Of a DNA stretch of 62,125 nt, positions 19,040 to 35,328 are shown in pieces. Source of the DNA: Hyphomonadaceae bacterium (GTDB lineage: Bacteria; Pseudomonadota; Alphaproteobacteria; Caulobacterales; Aquidulcibacteraceae). The notes beneath the pieces were generated by a model. That model saw nothing but the letters and a program-made list of their open reading frames with translations, was not told the origin of the DNA and did not search any database. Location: positions 1 to 62,125 of the forward strand of contig JAHDXR010000019.1 of assembly GCA_023384105.1 (NCBI GenBank), in the 5' to 3' direction. Both the position numbers and the translations under genes were made by a program. How positions within the stretch are numbered: the first letter of the stretch is position 1; every line of letters begins with the position of its first letter.

Positions 19040-20179
19040 CTACAGGATCAGGCGCTTGTCGATGCCGGCGACGTTCGCGCAGCCCGACAGTTTCATCGCG
19101 GTTTCGACTTCCGTGCGCAGGATCGAAAGCGCGCGCGCGACGCCGGCTTCGCCGCCGGCGCTCAGCCCGTAGAGATAGGGACGGCCGATCGCGCAAGCGT
19201 TCGCGCCGAGCGCCAGCGCTTTCAGCACATGCACGCCGCGACGTACGCCGCCTTCAAGAATGATCTCGATGCCCCCGCCCACCGTCTCGGCGATGCGCGG
19301 CAAAACATCGAGCGGCGCGGCCGCGCCGTCGAGCTGGCGTCCGCCATGATTGGAGACGATGATCGCGCTTACGCCCGTATCGGCTGCGCGCCGCGCATCT
19401 TCTGCCGACATCACGCCTTTCAGTGCGAACGGCCCGTCCCAAAGCTCAATGAATTCGTGCAAATCCGCCCATGTGACCGATGGATCGAGACCGGCGCTCA
19501 GCCGTTTCGAACGTTTCACAAAGCCGGAATCTTCGGTGCGCGCTTCAAAATTGGCGTAGGTGAGAGGTCCTTTGCTGGCCTGTCCCCAGGCCCAGCCCGG
19601 ATGCAGCGCAAAGTTCGCGAAGCTCGACGGCGTAAGCCGCGGGGGTATGGTGAAGCCGGTTTTGAGATCCCGTTCGCGCTTGCCGACGACCGGCACATCG
19701 ACGGCGAGGCAAAGCGCTGCGTATCCGGCTTGCTTGCAGCGCTCGATCAGGTTTCGGGTCACGCCGCGATCTTTGTTGACATAGATCTGGAACATCTTGG
19801 GTCCGTCGCTGGCGGCGGCGACCGCTTCGAGGCTGTAGGTCGAGGCGGTGGACAAAGTGTAGAACGCACCCGCACGGGCTGCGGCGCGTGCAACCGCCAA
19901 CTCGCCCTCCGGGTGGAACAGGCGCGATGCGCCGGTGGGTGAGCAGAGCACCGGCCAGGCGATGGTCTGACCGAGCACGCGCGTAGACGTATCGACCGCG
20001 CTTGCATCCACAAGACACGAGGGCACGAGCCTTACGTCGTCGAACGCCTGCATATTGCGCCGGGCGGTGATTTCGTTCTCGGCCGCCCCGTCGAGATAAT
20101 GAAACACGGGATCCGGCAGGCGCTGCCGCGCGAGGGCGCGCAGATCGGCAATGTTGTGGCATTTCGCGAGCGTGGACAT
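19040..20179 (-). CDS. FMN-dependent alpha-hydroxy-acid oxidase/dehydrogenase
   Basis: 379 residues. TIM-barrel FMN enzyme of the glycolate oxidase/L-lactate dehydrogenase family: N-terminal DLRALARQRLPDPVFHYLDGAAENE, catalytic His in IIVSNHGGRQLDGA, and the C-terminal EGGVRRGVHVLKALALGA phosphate-binding region. It converts an L-2-hydroxy acid to a 2-keto acid. Divergent from a monocarboxylate-type MFS carrier followed by a D-2-hydroxyacid dehydrogenase, so this region looks like a hydroxyacid uptake-and-oxidation module handling both stereochemistries. Confidence 0.92.
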   Translation of the reverse strand: MSTLAKCHNIADLRALARQRLPDPVFHYLDGAAENEITARRNMQAFDDVRLVPSCLVDASAVDTSTRVLGQTIAWPVLCSPTGASRLFHPEGELAVARAAARAGAFYTLSTASTYSLEAVAAASDGPKMFQIYVNKDRGVTRNLIERCKQAGYAALCLAVDVPVVGKRERDLKTGFTIPPRLTPSSFANFALHPGWAWGQASKGPLTYANFEARTEDSGFVKRSKRLSAGLDPSVTWADLHEFIELWDGPFALKGVMSAEDARRAADTGVSAIIVSNHGGRQLDGAAAPLDVLPRIAETVGGGIEIILEGGVRRGVHVLKALALGANACAIGRPYLYGLSAGGEAGVARALSILRTEVETAMKLSGCANVAGIDKRLIL

Positions 20180-20360: not shown

Positions 20361-21662
20361 GTGAGCGGCGATCCATCCATGAGCGAATTGCGTAAGAACT
20401 GGCCGCTCGTCTTTACCTCGACGATCGGGGTTTCGGTCGGCACGATCGGAATTTATTCCATGGGCCTGTTCATCGCCCCACTTGAGCAGGCCTTCGGCTG
20501 GTCGCGCACGCAAATCACCTCGGGCTTGCTGATCTCGGGATTGATGGCGGTGCCGCTTTCGCCTTTTGTCGGCGCGCTGATCGACAAATGGGGCGGGCGT
20601 CAGCTGGCGCTGATCGGCTCGATCCTGACCGGCGCCGTATTCGCCGCTTTCTCTCTCATCCAGAACTCGCTCATCCAATGGTGGATGCTGTGGGCGCTGT
20701 TCGGTCTCGTCCTGCTCGGCGTGAAAACGACGGTGTGGACGGCCGCTGTGGCGCGCGTATTCGAAAAGGAGCGCGGCCTCGCCTTGGCGATCACGCTGAG
20801 CGGGGCGGGGATTGCGGCGACCCTCATGCCGAGCTTGGCGGAGTATTGCATCGCGAATTTCGGCTGGCGGCAGGCCTATGCGCTGATCGGTTTGGGCTGG
20901 GCCGCGCCCACGGTGGCGTTGGTCTTGTTCTTTTTCTTTGATCCGCGCCCGAGCGCTGCGGCGCCGGCGCAGGCGGGCGCTCCAGCGCGGCCTGTGCATT
21001 TGCCGGGACTGAATGTCTGGGAAGCCTTGCGCTCATGGGCCTTCCTCAAGATCTGTTTTGTCACCCTCACACTCAACTCGTTGCTGATCGGACTTACGAT
21101 CCATTTGGTGCCGATCTTCACCGCTTCCGGCGTCGCGCGCGAAACGGCGGCGGCCGTTTCCGGGGCGGTTGGGATTGCTAGCATTGTTGGCAAACTGGTG
21201 AGCGGTCCGCTCGTCGATCGTTGGCCGGGGCGCTACGTTGCCGCATTCTTCGCGCTGCCGCCCATTATCGCGTGTGTGCTGTTGCTTCAGCCGAATATCG
21301 GCAGCGTGAGCGCGACGATCGCTGCATTATCGATCGGCCTTGCCGCGGGCTCGTTGATGACGATGGCGAGTTATCTGACGACGCGATATGTCGGCATGCG
21401 GTCGTACGGAACCAATTTTGGCATCATAGCGAGTTTGCTTGCGTTGTCGGTGGGCCTCGGCCCCATGCTGTGCGGCATGGTCTACGACGCGCAACAAAGT
21501 TATCAGAGCGTCCTGTTCGGCGGTTTCGGGGTTTCTATCGTGTCGACGCTGCTGTTTATATCCTTGGGCGCGCCGCCCGTCTGGAACACGCAAACGCCGC
21601 TTGAGGGAGAGAGCAGAGGTGGCGCCGACGACGCTCCTGACCATGTTCAATCTGCGCCCTGA
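20361..21662 (+). CDS. MFS transporter, monocarboxylate-porter type
   Basis: 433 residues, twelve predicted membrane helices with a central cytoplasmic loop near 190-220. N-terminal GVSVGTIGIYSMGLFIAPLEQAFGWSR matches MCT/oxalate-formate-like carriers. The GTG at 20361 is used (GGGGA ten bases upstream); an ATG at 20379 is the alternative. It probably imports a carboxylate such as a hydroxy acid, given its neighbours. Its end overlaps the next gene's GTG start by 44 bases. Confidence 0.9.
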   Translation: MSGDPSMSELRKNWPLVFTSTIGVSVGTIGIYSMGLFIAPLEQAFGWSRTQITSGLLISGLMAVPLSPFVGALIDKWGGRQLALIGSILTGAVFAAFSLIQNSLIQWWMLWALFGLVLLGVKTTVWTAAVARVFEKERGLALAITLSGAGIAATLMPSLAEYCIANFGWRQAYALIGLGWAAPTVALVLFFFFDPRPSAAAPAQAGAPARPVHLPGLNVWEALRSWAFLKICFVTLTLNSLLIGLTIHLVPIFTASGVARETAAAVSGAVGIASIVGKLVSGPLVDRWPGRYVAAFFALPPIIACVLLLQPNIGSVSATIAALSIGLAAGSLMTMASYLTTRYVGMRSYGTNFGIIASLLALSVGLGPMLCGMVYDAQQSYQSVLFGGFGVSIVSTLLFISLGAPPVWNTQTPLEGESRGGADDAPDHVQSAP

Positions 21663-22572
21663 ACTCAGGGAAAAACTCGCCGCGCGCCATCGCCTGCTCG
21701 GGCCGTTGGCCTCGCCTGCCGGGCAATTGGCCGGCGACGAGCATGCCGGCGACATACGCGTGGCGGTCACGTTGGGACACATCCCGTTCGGCGCGGCGCT
21801 GATGGATGCACTGCCGAATCTCGGGCTGATCGCCGTCTATGGCGCAGGCTACGAGAACGTCGATCTCGCCGCGGCCGAGGCGCGCGGGGTTCAGGTGACG
21901 AACGGCGCCGCCGGCAACGCTTCCTGTGTGGCCGATGCGGCGATGGCGCTGCTGCTTGCCGTGGTCATGAGGCTGCCGCAAGCGGACGCCCTGGTGCGTG
22001 GCGGAAGCTGGGATCGTATTCCGCCGCAGAACTGGCGTCGCCAGCCGGGCATCGGCGCCAAGCGCATGGGCATAGTGGGGCTGGGCAATATCGGATCGAG
22101 AATCGCCGTCCGCGCGCAAGCCTTCGAGCTGGAGATCGGCTACCACAATCGCGCGCGACGCAACGATGTTGCGTATCGGTATTTTACGTCCGTGCGCGAA
22201 CTTGCGCACTGGGCCGACTATCTTGTCGTCGCCGCGCCGGGCAGCGCAGCGACGCAAGCCATGATCGACGCGGATGTGCTGCGTGCGCTCGGGCGCGGCG
22301 GCTATCTCATCAATATCGCGCGCGGGTCCCTGGTCGACCAAGCCGCGCTCATAGCGGCGCTCGAAGCCGGCGAGATCGCAGGCGCGGGATTGGACGTCTA
22401 TGCCGACGAACCGCACGTATCGGCGGCGCTGCGCAGCGCGCCGAATACGGTGCTCACGCCTCACGTTGCGGGCTTCAGCGCCCGCGCCGCCAAAAATCTG
22501 GATGAACTGCTGCTGGAAAACATCGCCGCTTTCCTGGAGGGCCGCGCCCTGGCGACGAAAGTATCGCGCTAA
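21619..22572 (+). CDS. D-isomer-specific 2-hydroxyacid dehydrogenase (GyaR-like)
   Basis: 317 residues from the GTG at 21619, preceded by GGGAGAGAG; ATG 21643 is an alternative. The frame extends further upstream inside the MFS gene but without family similarity. Cofactor motif GLGNIGSR, NIARGSLVD with active-site Arg, and LTPHVAGFS with catalytic His. It reduces glyoxylate/hydroxypyruvate-like keto acids or oxidises D-2-hydroxy acids. Co-transcribed with the MFS carrier. Confidence 0.9.
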   Translation: MAPTTLLTMFNLRPELREKLAARHRLLGPLASPAGQLAGDEHAGDIRVAVTLGHIPFGAALMDALPNLGLIAVYGAGYENVDLAAAEARGVQVTNGAAGNASCVADAAMALLLAVVMRLPQADALVRGGSWDRIPPQNWRRQPGIGAKRMGIVGLGNIGSRIAVRAQAFELEIGYHNRARRNDVAYRYFTSVRELAHWADYLVVAAPGSAATQAMIDADVLRALGRGGYLINIARGSLVDQAALIAALEAGEIAGAGLDVYADEPHVSAALRSAPNTVLTPHVAGFSARAAKNLDELLLENIAAFLEGRALATKVSR

Positions 22573-22650: not shown

Positions 22651-23460
22651 TTAACGCGGGATCATGCGTTCGAGATCGCCTACGAGCGGCAGGGGATGGA
22701 TGCGCAGAATGAACTCCCGCATGCGCGCGAAATAGCCCTTCCAGATGTCTTCGGCTCTCTGTGGGTCACGCGCTTCGATCGCGTCGACCAACTCCTCCTT
22801 GATCGCCATGATCTGGAGTTTGCGCTCCCGGCTCTCGGCCACGACCTGCACGGAAGGTTGCGCCGAGGCCTCGACATAAGTGGCCAGCACGCCGCTCACC
22901 ATGCCGATGAAGAGGCCGAGGCTCTTCAGGCCCGATAATTCCATCAGCATTTGATGGAATTGGGCGGAGTGAACGCCGTATTGATGATGGTCGTCGACGA
23001 CCTCATAGGTCGCCTGCAATTGCTGCCGGAGCGCGCGCACCGTCTTGCGGGTCGGCTTTTCGGCGAGCATGCGAACCGCTGCAGGCTCGAAGATCGAGAG
23101 CGACATGTAGATATCGTCGATCGAGACCTTGTTGGCCCGCAGTATGAAATCCATGTAGCGGGCGGCCATCGCCACCGTCGGCCTGTGAATGACCGCGCCG
23201 GTGCGCACGCCGCGTGAGATGCTGATGAGCCCCTCGGATTCGAGAATGCAGAAAGCTTCGCGGAACGTGATCCGCGAGACGCCGAAATGCTCGACAAGCT
23301 CGTTTTCGGGCGGAAGCCTTTCGCCTTCCTTGAGCGTTCCGTCGATGATCTGACGGCGCAGTTCCGCGGCGACGAGTTCGGCCATCTTGGGCGCGCGGAT
23401 CGCTCGCTTCTTCGGCGCGGGCGTGCGCGGCGTGCTGACAAGCTTTTCGGCCACTTTCAT
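22651..23460 (-). CDS. GntR/FadR-family transcriptional regulator
   Basis: 269 residues. A basic N-terminal tail is followed by a winged helix (LPPENELVEHFGVSRITFREAFCILESEG, about 45-80) and an FCD ligand domain (about 105-250). Convergent with the hydroxyacid dehydrogenase and divergent from the KASIII-like gene across 232 bases. It resembles the 35320-36114 regulator in length and layout, so the two are probably paralogues. Candidate reader of the AATTGTCTAC motif at 23550. Confidence 0.9.
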   Translation of the reverse strand: MKVAEKLVSTPRTPAPKKRAIRAPKMAELVAAELRRQIIDGTLKEGERLPPENELVEHFGVSRITFREAFCILESEGLISISRGVRTGAVIHRPTVAMAARYMDFILRANKVSIDDIYMSLSIFEPAAVRMLAEKPTRKTVRALRQQLQATYEVVDDHHQYGVHSAQFHQMLMELSGLKSLGLFIGMVSGVLATYVEASAQPSVQVVAESRERKLQIMAIKEELVDAIEARDPQRAEDIWKGYFARMREFILRIHPLPLVGDLERMIPR

Positions 23461-23692: not shown

Positions 23693-24694
23693 ATGTCTCT
23701 CTCGATCTTGGGTTCGGGCGTGTATCTGCCGCCGGCCAAGGATGTGCGCGAACTCGTCGCCGCGCACGGCGGCGATCTTAGCCAGTACGCGGGCTGGGCC
23801 AATGTCTGCATCGCGCGCGATGAGGATCACCCCGGCCTCATGGCCGGGCGCGCGCTCGCGGAGGCGCTGGATCAGGCGCAGGTCGCGCCGGAGCAATTGG
23901 GCCTCGTCATCTTCGCGGGCGCCTCGCGCGACTATCCGCCGTCCTGGTCCGTTTCGACGGAAGCCATGCGGCTTGTGGGCGCATCGAGCGGGTGCCTGGG
24001 GCTCGACGTGACGGCCGGATGCGCGGCGACGCTTGCTGCGCTTGAACTCGTGCATGGTTGGCTTGCTTTGCGAGGCGACGGATTTGGCGCCGTCGTCGTC
24101 GCGGAGCGCTGGTCCTATACGATCGACTATTCGAACGCCGCTAATCGTGGAATCTGGACCCATGGCGACAGCGCCGCGGCGCTCATCGTAAGCCTCAATC
24201 GTCCTGAGCGCCGCCCCGAGCGCGCAGTCGCGACATATCTCGGCGCCGAGTTCGCCAGTGTGGCTGCAAACAACGGCCATGTCCTCATTCCCTACGGCGG
24301 AACACGCATGCCCGTGGCGCCGGAAGGCGTGGATCCATTTCACAGAGTGGTCAGCGACCGACCTGGCAAAGAAATCCTCGAATCCTACAAGAACGGTTTT
24401 CAGCAGGCGTACGCCGCTCTGCAGGCGCGCTTCGGCCTGACGCCCGCGCATCTGCTCTGCAATCAGACGACGCCGAACATGGTCAGGATGGTCGCGGAAG
24501 CCGCGGGCATGAGCATGGACGACACGGTCATCACCGGTGACGACACCGGCCATCTCGGCGGCGCCGACATCATCGTCGGACTACGTCGCCTGATCGGCGG
24601 CGGCGGCGTCACATCGCCGGTGCTCATGGCTTCGAGCACGGCTTACGCCTTCGGCATGGGGCTCCTTGTCCCCAGCCAGACACTCAACATGTGA
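23693..24694 (+). CDS. KASIII/thiolase-superfamily condensing enzyme, atypical active site
   Basis: 333 residues. The thiolase fold of the 3-oxoacyl-ACP synthase III/HMG-CoA synthase group is visible: LGSGVYLPP at the N-terminus, catalytic Cys110 in VTAGCAATL, and a C-terminal GHLGGADIIVGL. The His expected in the PHQAN-like motif is replaced: the segment reads LLCNQTTPNMVRMV (Asn257 at that place). The normal Cys-His-Asn triad is therefore altered. It could still do acyl transfer or Claisen-type condensation. It leads the cluster with the UGSC, NifU-like and thioredoxin genes and has a clear GGAG site. Confidence 0.85.
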   Translation: MSLSILGSGVYLPPAKDVRELVAAHGGDLSQYAGWANVCIARDEDHPGLMAGRALAEALDQAQVAPEQLGLVIFAGASRDYPPSWSVSTEAMRLVGASSGCLGLDVTAGCAATLAALELVHGWLALRGDGFGAVVVAERWSYTIDYSNAANRGIWTHGDSAAALIVSLNRPERRPERAVATYLGAEFASVAANNGHVLIPYGGTRMPVAPEGVDPFHRVVSDRPGKEILESYKNGFQQAYAALQARFGLTPAHLLCNQTTPNMVRMVAEAAGMSMDDTVITGDDTGHLGGADIIVGLRRLIGGGGVTSPVLMASSTAYAFGMGLLVPSQTLNM

Positions 24695-24727
24695 GCCCAT
24701 CGGATGCTGAATGACAAGGGAGCTGCC

Positions 24728-25750
24728 ATGACGGTTGACGCAATAGAGCGCTGCTTCGAGATCGGATGGACGGATGGATTGCCGGTCGTGCCCCCGCATC
24801 GCTACCTGGTCGAGCAGATGCTCGATGCATTGGGGTGGAAGGCCGACGACGTAATCGGCGGGATCAAAACTCAGCGGATCGAGATCACAGCGCAGCATCT
24901 GGCGGCGGCGGCTGTAATGGCGGGCTGCCGCACGGACTATGCCCGCGTGCTCCGGCCATTGGCGGAGCTGGTTGTGGATGAGGCCTTCAATGTCAGCGGC
25001 GTGGAAGTCACCACCGGCGGGCCGGCGGTGCTCGTGCTTGTGAGCGGGCCCGTCGTGCAGGAAATGGGTTTTGCCCATGCCGCGAACGCAATCGGCGGCG
25101 CGAATGCGCGGCCTAACGCGACCATCGGGCGGTTCGCCAACCTGGTGCGCCACTTCAGCGGGCGCGGCGGAGGCGTTCTGGAGACGCATGGCACGATCGG
25201 TCACCCGGGGCGCTATTCGTTTCTGATTGCGGAGCATCCCGAGACGCAGTGGGGGCCGTTCCATACGCAGTTGGGAATCGAGGCGGGGGAGTCGGCGGTC
25301 GGGATCATGGCGGCCGAAGGTCCGAACAGCGTCAACAATCATTATGCGAGCGAAGCCGATCAAGTTCTGGAGACGATCGCGGGCACGCTCGCCCATCCAG
25401 GCTTCACGAATTGGTACTGGCACTTCGGCGCGTGCGTCGTTGCGATCGCCCCGCAGCACGCCACGTTGATCGCGAGCAAGTATTCGCGGGACGAAGCCCG
25501 TCACATGCTGTTCGAGATGTCGAAGCGGCCCACCGACGAGCTGATCAGGCTGGGGCGCATGCCTGCTGAGCCGCGTGAGAAGAGCAAGGTGGAGCCGGGC
25601 GCGATGCGGGCGCCGTTCGACCGTGAGTCCCAGATCCACATCATCGAGAGCGGCCACGACGGCGGCAAGTTCTCCGCAGTGATCCCAGCGTGGGTCGGAG
25701 ACTATTCCGTCCACATCAAGAAGATCGACTCTGCTGTTGGGAGCGCATGA
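24728..25750 (+). CDS. Uncharacterised 340-residue protein, partner of UGSC-family protein
   Basis: The start is the ATG at 24728 with AAGGGAG six bases upstream; an ATG at 24704 lacks such a site. No characterised domain is recognised. Visible features: an N-terminal WTDGLPVVPPHRYLVEQML, AGCRTDYARVLRPL (Cys67), a glycine-rich central region with HGTIGHPGRYSFLIAEHPE, and GPNSVNNHYASEADQVLETIA. From memory, proteins with WTDGLPVVPP and HPGKY-type motifs are found beside UGSC proteins in other bacteria; this needs a search. Soluble, three Cys (9, 67, 236). It overlaps the UGSC gene by ATGA. Function unknown. Confidence 0.85.
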   Translation: MTVDAIERCFEIGWTDGLPVVPPHRYLVEQMLDALGWKADDVIGGIKTQRIEITAQHLAAAAVMAGCRTDYARVLRPLAELVVDEAFNVSGVEVTTGGPAVLVLVSGPVVQEMGFAHAANAIGGANARPNATIGRFANLVRHFSGRGGGVLETHGTIGHPGRYSFLIAEHPETQWGPFHTQLGIEAGESAVGIMAAEGPNSVNNHYASEADQVLETIAGTLAHPGFTNWYWHFGACVVAIAPQHATLIASKYSRDEARHMLFEMSKRPTDELIRLGRMPAEPREKSKVEPGAMRAPFDRESQIHIIESGHDGGKFSAVIPAWVGDYSVHIKKIDSAVGSA

Positions 25751-26304
25751 CGATGAGCAATGAAACGATCAGCCCTGAGCTGGAGCTGTTGAATCCGATT
25801 CCGCGTCCTGCTTCGGGACCGTTCACCGTGAAGGTGAAGCCGAAGAAGCGGGAGGTCTATTTCGTCGACAACAACAAGCCGAACTCGCTTGCGATCCTGA
25901 AACGCGCCCAGGCGGAGTTGCGGCGACGCGGCGTCGCGGTGCGCGAGGAGATCGGCAGCAAGCCGTTCGCCGGCGGACCGATGACGGACGAGCAATTGGC
26001 GGAATTGTCCCAGGAGCAGAGCCTAGTGCTATGCGGGATCAACGATTGCGGCAGCTGTTCGATGGGCGGCGCACTGGACTCGGTGCTCCTGCAGCGGGCG
26101 GGCGTCGCCGGCTTCACCATCCTGACCACTCCGTTCGGCGATCGCGTCCGCGACATCACTGCGTTTCAGGAGACGGATCGCCCGCTGCCGGCGATCGTGC
26201 TGACCCACCCGATGCAGAACATCAGCGACGAGGAACTCGATCAGCGCGCGGTCGAGCTGGCCGATGCGGCTGAGCGCATGCTCGATGGAGAGGATCCGCA
26301 CTGA
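25747..26304 (+). CDS. UGSC-family protein, cysteine form (CGSC motif)
   Basis: 185 residues; the start ATG at 25747 overlaps the previous stop, and ATG 25753 has a better-spaced GGGAG. The core reads VLCGINDCGSCSMGG with Cys96, Cys101 and Cys104. The CGSC tetrad corresponds to the UGSC motif of a family first noted among marine metagenomic selenoproteins, here with Cys instead of Sec. An alpha/beta fold is likely (REVYFVDNNKPNS, then TTPFGDRVRDITAFQ). A CxxC-like motif implies thiol redox chemistry. Flanked by NifU-like and thioredoxin genes in one operon. The reaction is unknown. Confidence 0.82.
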   Translation: MTMSNETISPELELLNPIPRPASGPFTVKVKPKKREVYFVDNNKPNSLAILKRAQAELRRRGVAVREEIGSKPFAGGPMTDEQLAELSQEQSLVLCGINDCGSCSMGGALDSVLLQRAGVAGFTILTTPFGDRVRDITAFQETDRPLPAIVLTHPMQNISDEELDQRAVELADAAERMLDGEDPH

Positions 26305-26582
26305 TGGGAACGTTGATTGAAGGCGTCAACGCGGCGATCGAGAATCTCCGTCCGTCTTTCACGGCCGACGATTTCGATATCAGCCTTGAAAGCCTTAGCG
26401 AAGCGGGGGATGTGGTCGTCGCGATCCGGGCAGGCCCAGGCGCGTGTCTGGATTGCCTCGTGCCGGACGCGATGCTCAGGCAGATCGTGGATGTCGCGGT
26501 CCGCCGATACGCCCCCGGCGTGGCGAGCGTGGCCGTGGTCAAGCGCGGCTTCGATGCGATCGAAGCGCGCGGATCGTCGTAG
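26304..26582 (+). CDS. NifU C-terminal-domain-like small protein with CLDC motif
   Basis: 92 residues. The pattern IEGVNAAIENLRPSFTADDF...VVVAIRAGPGACLDCLVPDAML...YAPGVASVAVV follows the NifU/Nfu C-terminal domain (LRPxLxxDGGD, then GACxxC). The scaffold motif CxxC is kept as CLDC, though the aspartate/glycine-rich stretch before it is altered. Nfu domains carry or transfer an Fe-S cluster; here the role may instead be thiol relay. It starts with TGATG overlap to the UGSC gene, with GGAGAGG about ten bases upstream. Confidence 0.75.
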   Translation: MGTLIEGVNAAIENLRPSFTADDFDISLESLSEAGDVVVAIRAGPGACLDCLVPDAMLRQIVDVAVRRYAPGVASVAVVKRGFDAIEARGSS

Positions 26583-26648
26583 CCGGCGTTGAGAGGAGCG
26601 GCCGCCATCTCGGCGGAAGGGCAGGTTGCGGAGACAGGGAGAATCCAG

Positions 26649-26972
26649 ATGATTGCTGTGGCCACCACATCCGCCACCTTCGAGCAGGACGTCCTGCAAG
26701 CCGAGGGGCCTGTGCTTGTCGACTTCTGGGCGCCCTGGTGCGGCCCCTGCCGCGGTCTTTCGCCGGTGCTCGATCAAATCCAGGCCGCTAACACCGGCAA
26801 GATCACGATCCTGAAGCTCAACATCGGCGAGAACCCCGATCTTGCAATGAGATACCAGATCACCTCCGTTCCGGTGATGAAGGTCTTCAAGAACGGTGAA
26901 GTCGAGGCCACGATCATCGGCGCCAAACCGAAATCCGCCATCGAACATGTTCTCGCGCCGTACCTCGCCTAG
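26649..26972 (+). CDS. Thioredoxin
   Basis: 107 residues from the ATG at 26649 (AGGGAG seven bases upstream); an earlier in-frame ATG is out of family. Classic thioredoxin: VLVDFWAPWCGPCRGLSPVLDQI with WCGPC active site, the cis-Pro region ITSVPVMKVFKNGE and a C-terminal helix. Last gene of the KASIII-UGSC cluster, 67 bases after the NifU-like gene. Its presence implies that a cysteine of the UGSC or NifU-like protein needs reduction. Unlikely to be the housekeeping thioredoxin because of its location. Confidence 0.93.
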   Translation: MIAVATTSATFEQDVLQAEGPVLVDFWAPWCGPCRGLSPVLDQIQAANTGKITILKLNIGENPDLAMRYQITSVPVMKVFKNGEVEATIIGAKPKSAIEHVLAPYLA

Positions 26973-33144: not shown

Positions 33145-35328
33145 ATGCAGCTTCAGCCGACGACCGACCAGCTTCAGATGGTCGAGACCTTCCGGCGTTT
33201 CTTCGACGCCGAATGCAGCATCGCGCGCACCCGCGTGGCGCTTTCTTTAGGCTTTGACCGCGAGATGTGGCGCAAGCTTGCTGGCCTGGGCGGGGTGTCC
33301 ATTCGCGTGTCCGAGGAGCGCGGCGGCGTCGGTCTTGGTCTGTTCGACGCGATCCTTCTGATGGAGGAGGCGGGGCGCGCCTTGGCCTCGGGTCCGCTCG
33401 CTGAAAGTATCGCGGCGCTTCGTTTGCTCGGCCAGTTTGGCGGGCAAGACGAACTCTTGGCGTCGGCGCTCGCAGGGGAAAGCGTGGTGACGCTGGCGTT
33501 GCATGACGCATCGTCCAAGCCTTCGCAACTCGTCGCCGGCGGCGCCGTGGCCGCGGCGGTGATCGTACGCTGTGGCGACGAAGTGGCGCTTGTGCGGCCC
33601 ACGCTTCCCACGCCGGAGACGACGCTCGCCTCGCCGCCGCTCGCGCGCCTTGCGCTTGACGCAGGCGAACGCGTCGTGCTGGGCCGCGGCCAGGAGGCGA
33701 TCGCGAAATTCGAAGCGGCGGTGGAGGAGTGGAAATTGCTGATCGCCGCAGCGCTCGCCGGCTTGGCGCGCGAGGCGTTGCGTCTTGCCTCCGCTTATGC
33801 GGCGGAGCGTCGGCAATTCGGCAAGCCGATCGGCGCGTTCCAGGCGATCTCGCATCCGCTCGCCGAGCTCAGCGTGGACGTGGACGCGGGGCGACTGTTA
33901 GTCTGGAGCGCGGTGCGCGACCTCGCCGACTCCCATCCGATGGCGGGCGCTAATGTCTCCGGCGCCATGTGGTGGGCGTGTGACGCTGCGGGACGCACGG
34001 TTGCACAGGCGCTGCACACGTTCGGGGGCTACGGACTCACGCTCGAGTACGACATCCATCTCTACAATCTGCGCGCCAAAGCCTGGCCGCTCGTCTACGG
34101 CGACCCGGAGCTTTTGCTGCAGGAGGCGGGGCGGCGCAGATATGGCGGCGAGACCGTGCATCTGCCGGACGCCGGCGAATTGCCCATAGAATTCGGCCTG
34201 GGCGCCGACGCCGAGGCGCTCGCCGCCGAAACCCGCGCATTCTTCGAACGCATCCTGACGCCGGAGCTGCGCGCGCGCGCGCACTTTTCGTTCAAGGGGC
34301 ACGTGCCTGAAGTGCATCGCGAGCTTGCGCGCGCGGGTCTGCTCTTTCCGACATGGCCCAGGCGCTTGGGCGGGCGAGAGGCCAATCTCTACGCCGAAGA
34401 GGCGGCGATGCGCGTGTGGCGCGAGTTCGGCTGGACGACGAACTTCCAGGGCACGGTCAATATGGCCGGCGCCGCGATCGATCGATTTGGCGCGCCCGAA
34501 CTGAAGCGCGACGTCCTCGCCAAGTTTGCTTCGGGCAAGGCCGTTTGCAGTCTGGGGTTCAGCGAGCCGGGTTCTGGCTCCGATGTGTTCGCGGCGGTCA
34601 CGCGCGCTACGCGCGACGGCGACGGCTGGCTGATCAACGGCCAGAAGATGTTCACGAGCGGGGCCGAACGAGCCGACTACGTGCTTCTGCTCGCGCGCAC
34701 CGATCCCGATGCGCCCAAGCACAGCGGCCTGACCATGTTCATCGTGCCGCTCAAGGCCGACGGCGTCACGGTGCAGCCCGTGCACACGTTCCAGGAAGAA
34801 CAGACCAACATCACGTTCTATGACAACGTGCGTATTCCAGACACCTACCGGTTGGGCGAGGTCGGCGGCGGCGTGAAGGTCATGGCCGCATCCTTGGAGA
34901 TGGAGCATGGCATGTCGTTCTCCGGCGTGCATCGCCAGCTCTTGCACGCCGCCGAGCGGCTCTGCGCCGAGCAGGGCGGCGGCGCTATCGCCGACGCGCG
35001 CGTACAGACGCGCCTTGCCAAGGCGGCGGCGCGTGTGCAGGCGTCGGAATTGCTGTTCTGCCGGGCGATGTGGGCGGCCGAAGAGCGCTTGCCGAACCTG
35101 GCCTATGGCCCGGCCTCGAAACTGTTCTCGTCGGAGATGTTCCGCGCGGATTCCGCCGATCTGCTCGATCTTACAGCGCCGGATTCGCTTGCGGCCGCCT
35201 CAAGGGACGCAGCCATCATCAATCTCGGCTACCGCCACTCGCAGGTGACCACCGTCTATGGCGGCACGAGCGAAGTGCACAAGAGCATCATCGCCGAGAG
35301 GCAGTTGGGATTGCCGCGTTCACGCTAG
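33145..35328 (+). CDS. Double-length acyl-CoA dehydrogenase (FadE34-like fusion)
   Basis: 727 residues, twice the normal length: two complete ACAD modules, about residues 1-345 (RRQFGKPIGAFQAISHPLAELSVD) and about 355-727 (GFSEPGSGSDVFAAVT, INGQKMFTSGAERADYVLL). The C-terminal half ends VYGGTSEVHKSIIAERQLGLPR and the N-terminal half VYGDPELLLQEAGRR. The same architecture is known for mycobacterial FadE34, which works on steroid side chains, and mirrors a fused alpha-beta heteromer. Its stop overlaps the convergent GntR stop region by nine bases. The substrate is inferred only by analogy. Confidence 0.93.
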   Translation: MQLQPTTDQLQMVETFRRFFDAECSIARTRVALSLGFDREMWRKLAGLGGVSIRVSEERGGVGLGLFDAILLMEEAGRALASGPLAESIAALRLLGQFGGQDELLASALAGESVVTLALHDASSKPSQLVAGGAVAAAVIVRCGDEVALVRPTLPTPETTLASPPLARLALDAGERVVLGRGQEAIAKFEAAVEEWKLLIAAALAGLAREALRLASAYAAERRQFGKPIGAFQAISHPLAELSVDVDAGRLLVWSAVRDLADSHPMAGANVSGAMWWACDAAGRTVAQALHTFGGYGLTLEYDIHLYNLRAKAWPLVYGDPELLLQEAGRRRYGGETVHLPDAGELPIEFGLGADAEALAAETRAFFERILTPELRARAHFSFKGHVPEVHRELARAGLLFPTWPRRLGGREANLYAEEAAMRVWREFGWTTNFQGTVNMAGAAIDRFGAPELKRDVLAKFASGKAVCSLGFSEPGSGSDVFAAVTRATRDGDGWLINGQKMFTSGAERADYVLLLARTDPDAPKHSGLTMFIVPLKADGVTVQPVHTFQEEQTNITFYDNVRIPDTYRLGEVGGGVKVMAASLEMEHGMSFSGVHRQLLHAAERLCAEQGGGAIADARVQTRLAKAAARVQASELLFCRAMWAAEERLPNLAYGPASKLFSSEMFRADSADLLDLTAPDSLAAASRDAAIINLGYRHSQVTTVYGGTSEVHKSIIAERQLGLPRSR

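Follow-up and report, generated by a model that had tools for sequence, protein, structure and literature searches.

Among the described selenoprotein reductases, PrdB and GrdB are held to apply a selenocysteine (Sec) to a substrate bound by a partner protein, and glycine reductase is supplied by thioredoxin reductase (TrxB) and thioredoxin, according to the available portions of two sources (PMC3091704, PMC10838667). The UGSC family was among the major selenoprotein families of a 2008 ocean survey, being more frequent in that survey's nonmarine samples; among the papers listed on it, the relevant ones are surveys and reviews of selenium or metalloproteins, and the accessible parts of three surveys give no function for it. 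Here we analysed a stretch of 62,125 nucleotides (the window), one whole contig (JAHDXR010000019.1) of the 3.67-Mb genome of a Hyphomonadaceae bacterium (GCA_023384105.1), which holds a cassette of five open reading frames (ORFs) in the same direction. They encode, in order, a KASIII-like protein (23693..24694, + strand, 333 aa), a protein that we call U340 (24704..25750, +; 348 aa from the ATG at 24704, 340 aa from that at 24728), a UGSC-family protein in its cysteine form (25747..26304, +; motif D-CGSC, C101/C104), a NifU-like domain protein (26304..26582, +; 92 aa) and a thioredoxin (26649..26972, +). U340 and UGSC are shown below to be a recurring pair, which co-occurs, lies adjacent, is sometimes fused and varies together.

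The U340-UGSC pair

An earlier note, made from the letters alone, had described five genes, four of them joined by ATGA and TGATG overlaps or very short gaps, with CGSC, CLDC and WCGPC motifs in the last three products; the ORF coordinates bear out this arrangement and all three motifs are in the translations. Nine nucleotides separate the KASIII-like gene from U340, the U340 stop overlaps the UGSC start (ATGA, 25747-25750), the UGSC stop overlaps the NifU start (TGATG, 26302-26306), and 66 nt lie between the NifU and thioredoxin genes. Pfam names four of the five proteins, the exception being U340, for which neither Pfam nor NCBIfam gave a family match; 22 members of its alignment likewise gave no meaningful Pfam match (best 0.072). 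Neither of two outcomes that the note had set against its own proposal came about: U340 was not recognised as any known enzyme, and its homologues are not mostly found alone.

In a 150-genome sample, which takes in the window's own genome and was searched for U340, UGSC and SelB, U340 has 11 carriers and UGSC has 11, and these are the identical 11 genomes. In the class-wide sample U340 is present in 38 of 385 genomes (own genome counted), often in several copies each. A scan of named genomes yielded at least 585 U340 relatives among at least 589 candidate stretches, of which the best 80 loci were kept (the 80 named loci); these span Pseudomonadota, Chloroflexota, Acidobacteriota, Actinomycetota, Rokubacteria and others. 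UGSC lies within the U340 locus in 75 of the 80, in 73 of them on the same strand and at most 1.5 kb away. U340 was further found in 18 plasmid records, several of them haloarchaeal, and UGSC adjoins it in five of the seven plasmid regions examined, Natrinema among them; in the regions from Sporomusa and Vibrio plasmids a weak UGSC part is fused to U340. Carriers include Mycobacterium, haloarchaea and anaerobes such as Sporomusa. The adjacency across distant genomes that the note had asked about recurs across phyla for this pair, and it is beyond chance both for U340 with UGSC and, in three distant genomes, for U340 and UGSC with the KASIII-like gene.

Covariation was assessed on 101 loci, made up of the 80 named loci, 20 drawn from class genomes and the window, which gave 100 pairs in 94 loci with 97 of the 100 UGSC rows differing from one another. 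The distance matrices of U340 and UGSC correlate with r = 0.82 (at most 0.11 in 1000 permutations), a value uncorrected for species relatedness, which inflates r. Fusions point the same way: five of 126 U340 rows, representing four distinct genes of which two are weak, carry a UGSC extension. One of the four genes is in the window's own genome (at C27), where a second, fused UGSC-U340 protein is encoded on another contig (L061:7242-9050). A UGSC fusion with a domain named 'Unknown_1' is mentioned in the accessible part of PMC2398784, and this domain may be U340. We presume that U340, the partner of UGSC, is the substrate-binding subunit of the pair.

A redoxin-like N-terminal extension is present on 21 of the 126 U340 rows, the label being based on similarity among the extensions and one Pfam match below cut-off (AhpC-TSA, 3.3e-5), a second extension tested having given none. 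Such fusions would suit a peroxide- or thiol-repair (peroxidase-like) system to which the KASIII-like protein and the catabolic neighbours are incidental, as would the description of UGSC-family proteins as likely Trx-like redox proteins in the portion of PMC2398784 available. However, the several U340 copies per genome, and neighbours that vary by locus and are in many cases catabolic or transport genes (partly labelled by eye), fit substrate-specific enzymes better, and the predicted fold of UGSC is flavodoxin-like, not thioredoxin-like. We consider a peroxidase-like system unlikely.

Selenocysteine, cysteine and the likeness to PrdB and GrdB

Among the 100 UGSC proteins of the pair set, 89 have an in-frame UGA and 10 a cysteine, one being cut off by a contig end, and 0.98 of the rows retain the motif's second Cys. 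SelB scores over cut-off in exactly eight of the 150 sampled genomes, the same eight that have an in-frame TGA in UGSC, and in none of the three sampled genomes with a Cys UGSC, that of the window included. The window UGSC is therefore the cysteine form of a mostly-selenoprotein family. Placing the Cys rows, with the contig-end row grouped among them, in the UGSC tree takes seven changes, indicating that Sec and Cys were exchanged more than once.

Sec machinery lies next to the pair in several relatives. selA and selB stand directly beside redoxin-U340 and UGSC in three of them (L192, L193 and L194), which belong to the eight genomes with SelB over cut-off, selA being divergent in one; an Ndh-SelD gene adjoins UGSC in one of the three, and in a fourth relative selB, selA and TrxB genes stand beside a UGSC-U340 gene. 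The genomes of the first three may keep their Sec machinery chiefly for UGSC, and the pair could account for the retention of selA, selB and selD in some lineages.

The window UGSC is above the cut-off of the Pfam UGSC family PF24696 (92.8 bits against 25) and falls short of that of NCBI NF041046 (80.2 against 125 bits); it differs from these family definitions as a divergent Cys subclade that has a KASIII-like protein and a genome without SelB over cut-off. When the UGSC alignment was compared by HHalign with PF07355 (GRDB), it matched the Sec half with Sec aligned to Sec, at a probability of 91.7% and P of 7.6e-7 with 100 rows, and at a probability of 80.4 and P of 1.3e-5 with 29 rows; the best P was 0.0083 among 40 controls, 0.039 among 60 column shuffles and 0.4 on reversal. 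With the E-value limit set at 10, the PF07355 model itself matched none of the 29 UGSC proteins searched, in a run whose HMMER filters drop most weak matches. A remote similarity of UGSC to the Sec-bearing half of PrdB-like proteins is well supported, and a distant relationship is likely.

U340-UGSC resembles D-proline reductase (PrdA/PrdB) and component B of glycine reductase (GrdB/GrdE) in having a small Sec/Cys protein with a U..C motif, a separate partner and multiple copies per genome, and in a presumed reduction by thioredoxin or thiols, which the available passages of PMC3091704 and PMC10838667 describe for those systems. Unlike them, it has a UGSC without PF07355 match, a different partner protein in U340, and carriers that include Mycobacterium and haloarchaea. 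PF09338 (PrdA/GrdE, the pyruvoyl proprotein) was found in none of 16 genomes (15 with PrdB-like proteins and the window's own), where no control matched either. Short PrdB-like proteins corresponding to the C-terminal half of PF07355 were observed in 24 of 240 alphaproteobacterial genomes (L162-L188), most of those examined with an in-frame UGA and some with the gene adjoining a SelD or Ndh-SelD gene; the same model gave no match in the window's genome, where no control matched either.

The KASIII-like protein, thioredoxin and NifU

The KASIII-like protein matches Pfam ACP_syn_III (26.2 bits, cut-off 24) and ACP_syn_III_C (29.3, cut-off 26.6) and is rare, found in its own genome alone among 289 of the class (E 1e-20) and among 398 of the phylum (E 1e-30), which gives no support to the five genes as one conserved unit. 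A KASIII-like gene lies beside U340 in one of the 80 named loci. Across the 48 genomes of these loci, the protein was found in Seongchinamella sediminis and in a deltaproteobacterial metagenome-assembled genome (MAG) labelled Myxococcota (L078); a third, weak match has the look of an ordinary FabH, with a PlsX-like neighbour (labelled by eye). The KASIII-like gene of S. sediminis and that of L078 lie directly behind U340 and UGSC, and in the window it comes first; the UGSC of both cassettes has a UGA. Identity to the window proteins is 54-55% for U340, 53-57% for UGSC and 47-49% for the KASIII-like protein. The occurrence of the trio in three distant lineages (Alphaproteobacteria, Gammaproteobacteria and the deltaproteobacterial MAG) makes it a conserved core, with a different order in the window.

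The active-site residues bear on what this protein may do. All three KASIII-like proteins keep the nucleophilic Cys and have Asn in place of the condensing His (Asn257 of the window protein, aligned to HQAN of FabH), and in all three the Asn region of FabH is replaced by (S/T)GH....D. The Cys-His-Asn triad of a condensing KASIII is thus absent. The window protein has instead, at motif level, the Cys-His-Asp triad of ChlB3 and CerJ, its Asp five residues from its His, namely Cys110-His287-Asp292 as compared with Cys113-His296-Asp301 of ChlB3, and the A3 profile matches CerJ (5.5e-10) and ChlB3 (1.2e-5). According to the portion of PMC9573744 available, transfer by CerJ needed residues matching this triad. 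Unlike ChlB3 and CerJ, the protein has ordinary FabH (4ryb) or DpsC as its top overall match and does not lie in an antibiotic cluster. DpsC carries the same type of (S/T)GH....D motif yet keeps a second His, which leaves the acyltransferase reading less than certain. Taken together, the residues give good, if not certain, reason to regard the KASIII-like protein as a putative Cys-His-Asp acyltransferase and not a condensing enzyme.

The cassette thioredoxin scores 100.3 bits in Pfam (Thioredoxin, cut-off 23.5), passes the equivalog cut-off of TIGR01068 (111.2 against 96.8 bits) and has the WCGPC motif. A thioredoxin-like gene (L062:9729-9968) comes after the cassette in Seongchinamella, without the WCGPC part and with a Pfam match over positions 56-102 only, and the L078 cassette has no thioredoxin; an intact cassette thioredoxin is found in the window only, among the three KASIII cassettes. 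TrxB lies at most 2 kb from the pair in three of the seven plasmid regions (Roseovarius, Arthrobacter together with TrxA, and, two genes away, Variovorax) and within 2 kb in two of six loci of relatives, and TrxB or TrxA occurs in just four of 100 other loci (E 1e-8; script-called genes). The TrxB neighbours and the redoxin-like fusions support, unevenly, a reduction of the pair by the thioredoxin system, and we presume that the window thioredoxin is the reductant of UGSC. On the Arthrobacter plasmid (L159), phosphosulfolactate synthase, TrxB, TrxA, U340 and UGSC follow one another in one run.

The sparse thioredoxin linkage (four of 100 loci) would also suit a thiol-dependent non-redox enzyme such as a lyase, isomerase or hydrolase, in which Cys or Sec is a covalent nucleophile and thioredoxin merely keeps the enzyme reduced, and two fused plasmid genes lie beside aconitase X and DUF126 genes. 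The near-invariant second Cys and the redoxin-like fusions argue for a redox cycle, however, and the likeness to PrdB is to a reductase; we regard a non-redox enzyme as quite unlikely. It is improbable, too, that the system is U340-UGSC alone, the other three genes belonging to a mobile catabolic cluster and bearing no relation to it. The KASIII-like gene was found in just three genomes and differs in position among them, being last in the two outside the window, and the intact thioredoxin is the window's alone; against this, KASIII adjoins the pair in all three distant genomes, and the U340 of the two outside the window is 54-55% identical to the window's, as compared with 32-41% for other U340 proteins in the named-genome scan.

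The NifU-like protein scores above the cut-off of PF01106 (29.7 bits against 27) and contains the CxxC motif CLDC. Next to U340 or UGSC, NifU was found in none of the 80 named loci (E 1e-3) and none of the 20 class loci (E 1e-4), the window alone having it. In the earlier view the KASIII-like enzyme makes an acyl thioester that then undergoes sulfur transfer or an iron-sulfur (Fe-S) step, the cluster coming from NifU; this view draws on CLDC and on the overlap of the NifU ATG with the UGSC stop. The lack of NifU recurrence speaks against it, as do the mostly U/C..C motif of UGSC with Sec first and the absence of the condensing His from all three KASIII-like proteins, and we consider it very improbable. 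The Fe-S or sulfur-transfer part of the earlier proposal, with NifU recurring in none of the 100 loci searched, is not supported; its notion of a thiol-redox system tied to an acyl enzyme is supported by the recurring pair, the redoxin-like fusions and the core trio.

Proposed reaction and genomic context

Beyond the observed pairing, we infer the reaction, the substrate class and the acyl step. We propose, at a confidence just short of even, that U340-UGSC is a two-subunit reductase resembling PrdB and GrdB, reset by thioredoxin, with the KASIII-like protein moving an acyl group in the window's clade. U340 would bind an organic substrate, and the thiolate of Cys101 (Sec elsewhere) would attack a polarised carbon-heteroatom bond, by analogy with PrdB and GrdB; Cys104 would resolve the adduct to a C101-C104 disulfide, which the cassette thioredoxin would reset. 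The KASIII-like protein might take an acyl group from the substrate or pass one to it, e.g., from an enzyme-bound thioester to coenzyme A (CoA), and NifU, found in this genome alone, would be accessory. Component C of glycine reductase contains a FabH-like subunit, and the role of the KASIII-like protein may be comparable.

More tentatively, and less likely than not, U340-UGSC could represent a broad undescribed class of substrate-specific Sec/Cys reductases, an offshoot of the PrdB/GrdB principle that aerobic bacteria and haloarchaea use in catabolism; this class may be the main reason why some lineages retain Sec machinery, and in the window's clade a KASIII-type acyltransferase would keep the product as a thioester. 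With a usual partner for UGSC, a likely relation to PrdB/GrdB, thioredoxin links and a Cys version from a genome without SelB over cut-off, the function becomes testable in an ordinary expression host.

The genes around the cassette mark a catabolic region. A GntR/FCD regulator (22651..23460, - strand) is divergent and a candidate regulator of the cassette, and a D-2-hydroxyacid dehydrogenase (21619..22572, +) gives context only. An FMN-dependent dehydrogenase of the alpha-hydroxy-acid type (19040..20179, -) has a 44.6% identical counterpart near the Seongchinamella cassette, a weak context link. Among the window neighbours scanned are two 2-hydroxyacid dehydrogenases, two FAS1-dehydratase-like proteins, two enoyl-CoA hydratases, an acyl-CoA dehydrogenase, an AMP-binding enzyme, an MFS transporter and a TonB receptor. 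These neighbours hint, weakly, at an alpha-substituted or alpha-hydroxy/keto acid as the substrate. The aconitase X and DUF126 genes mentioned above, near the fused (weak UGSC)-U340 genes of the Sporomusa and Vibrio plasmids (L155, L161), are a possible substrate clue as well. At 33145-35325 the window also encodes an acyl-CoA dehydrogenase of 727 aa, an apparent tandem fusion in which the N-terminal and the C-terminal domain are each matched twice.

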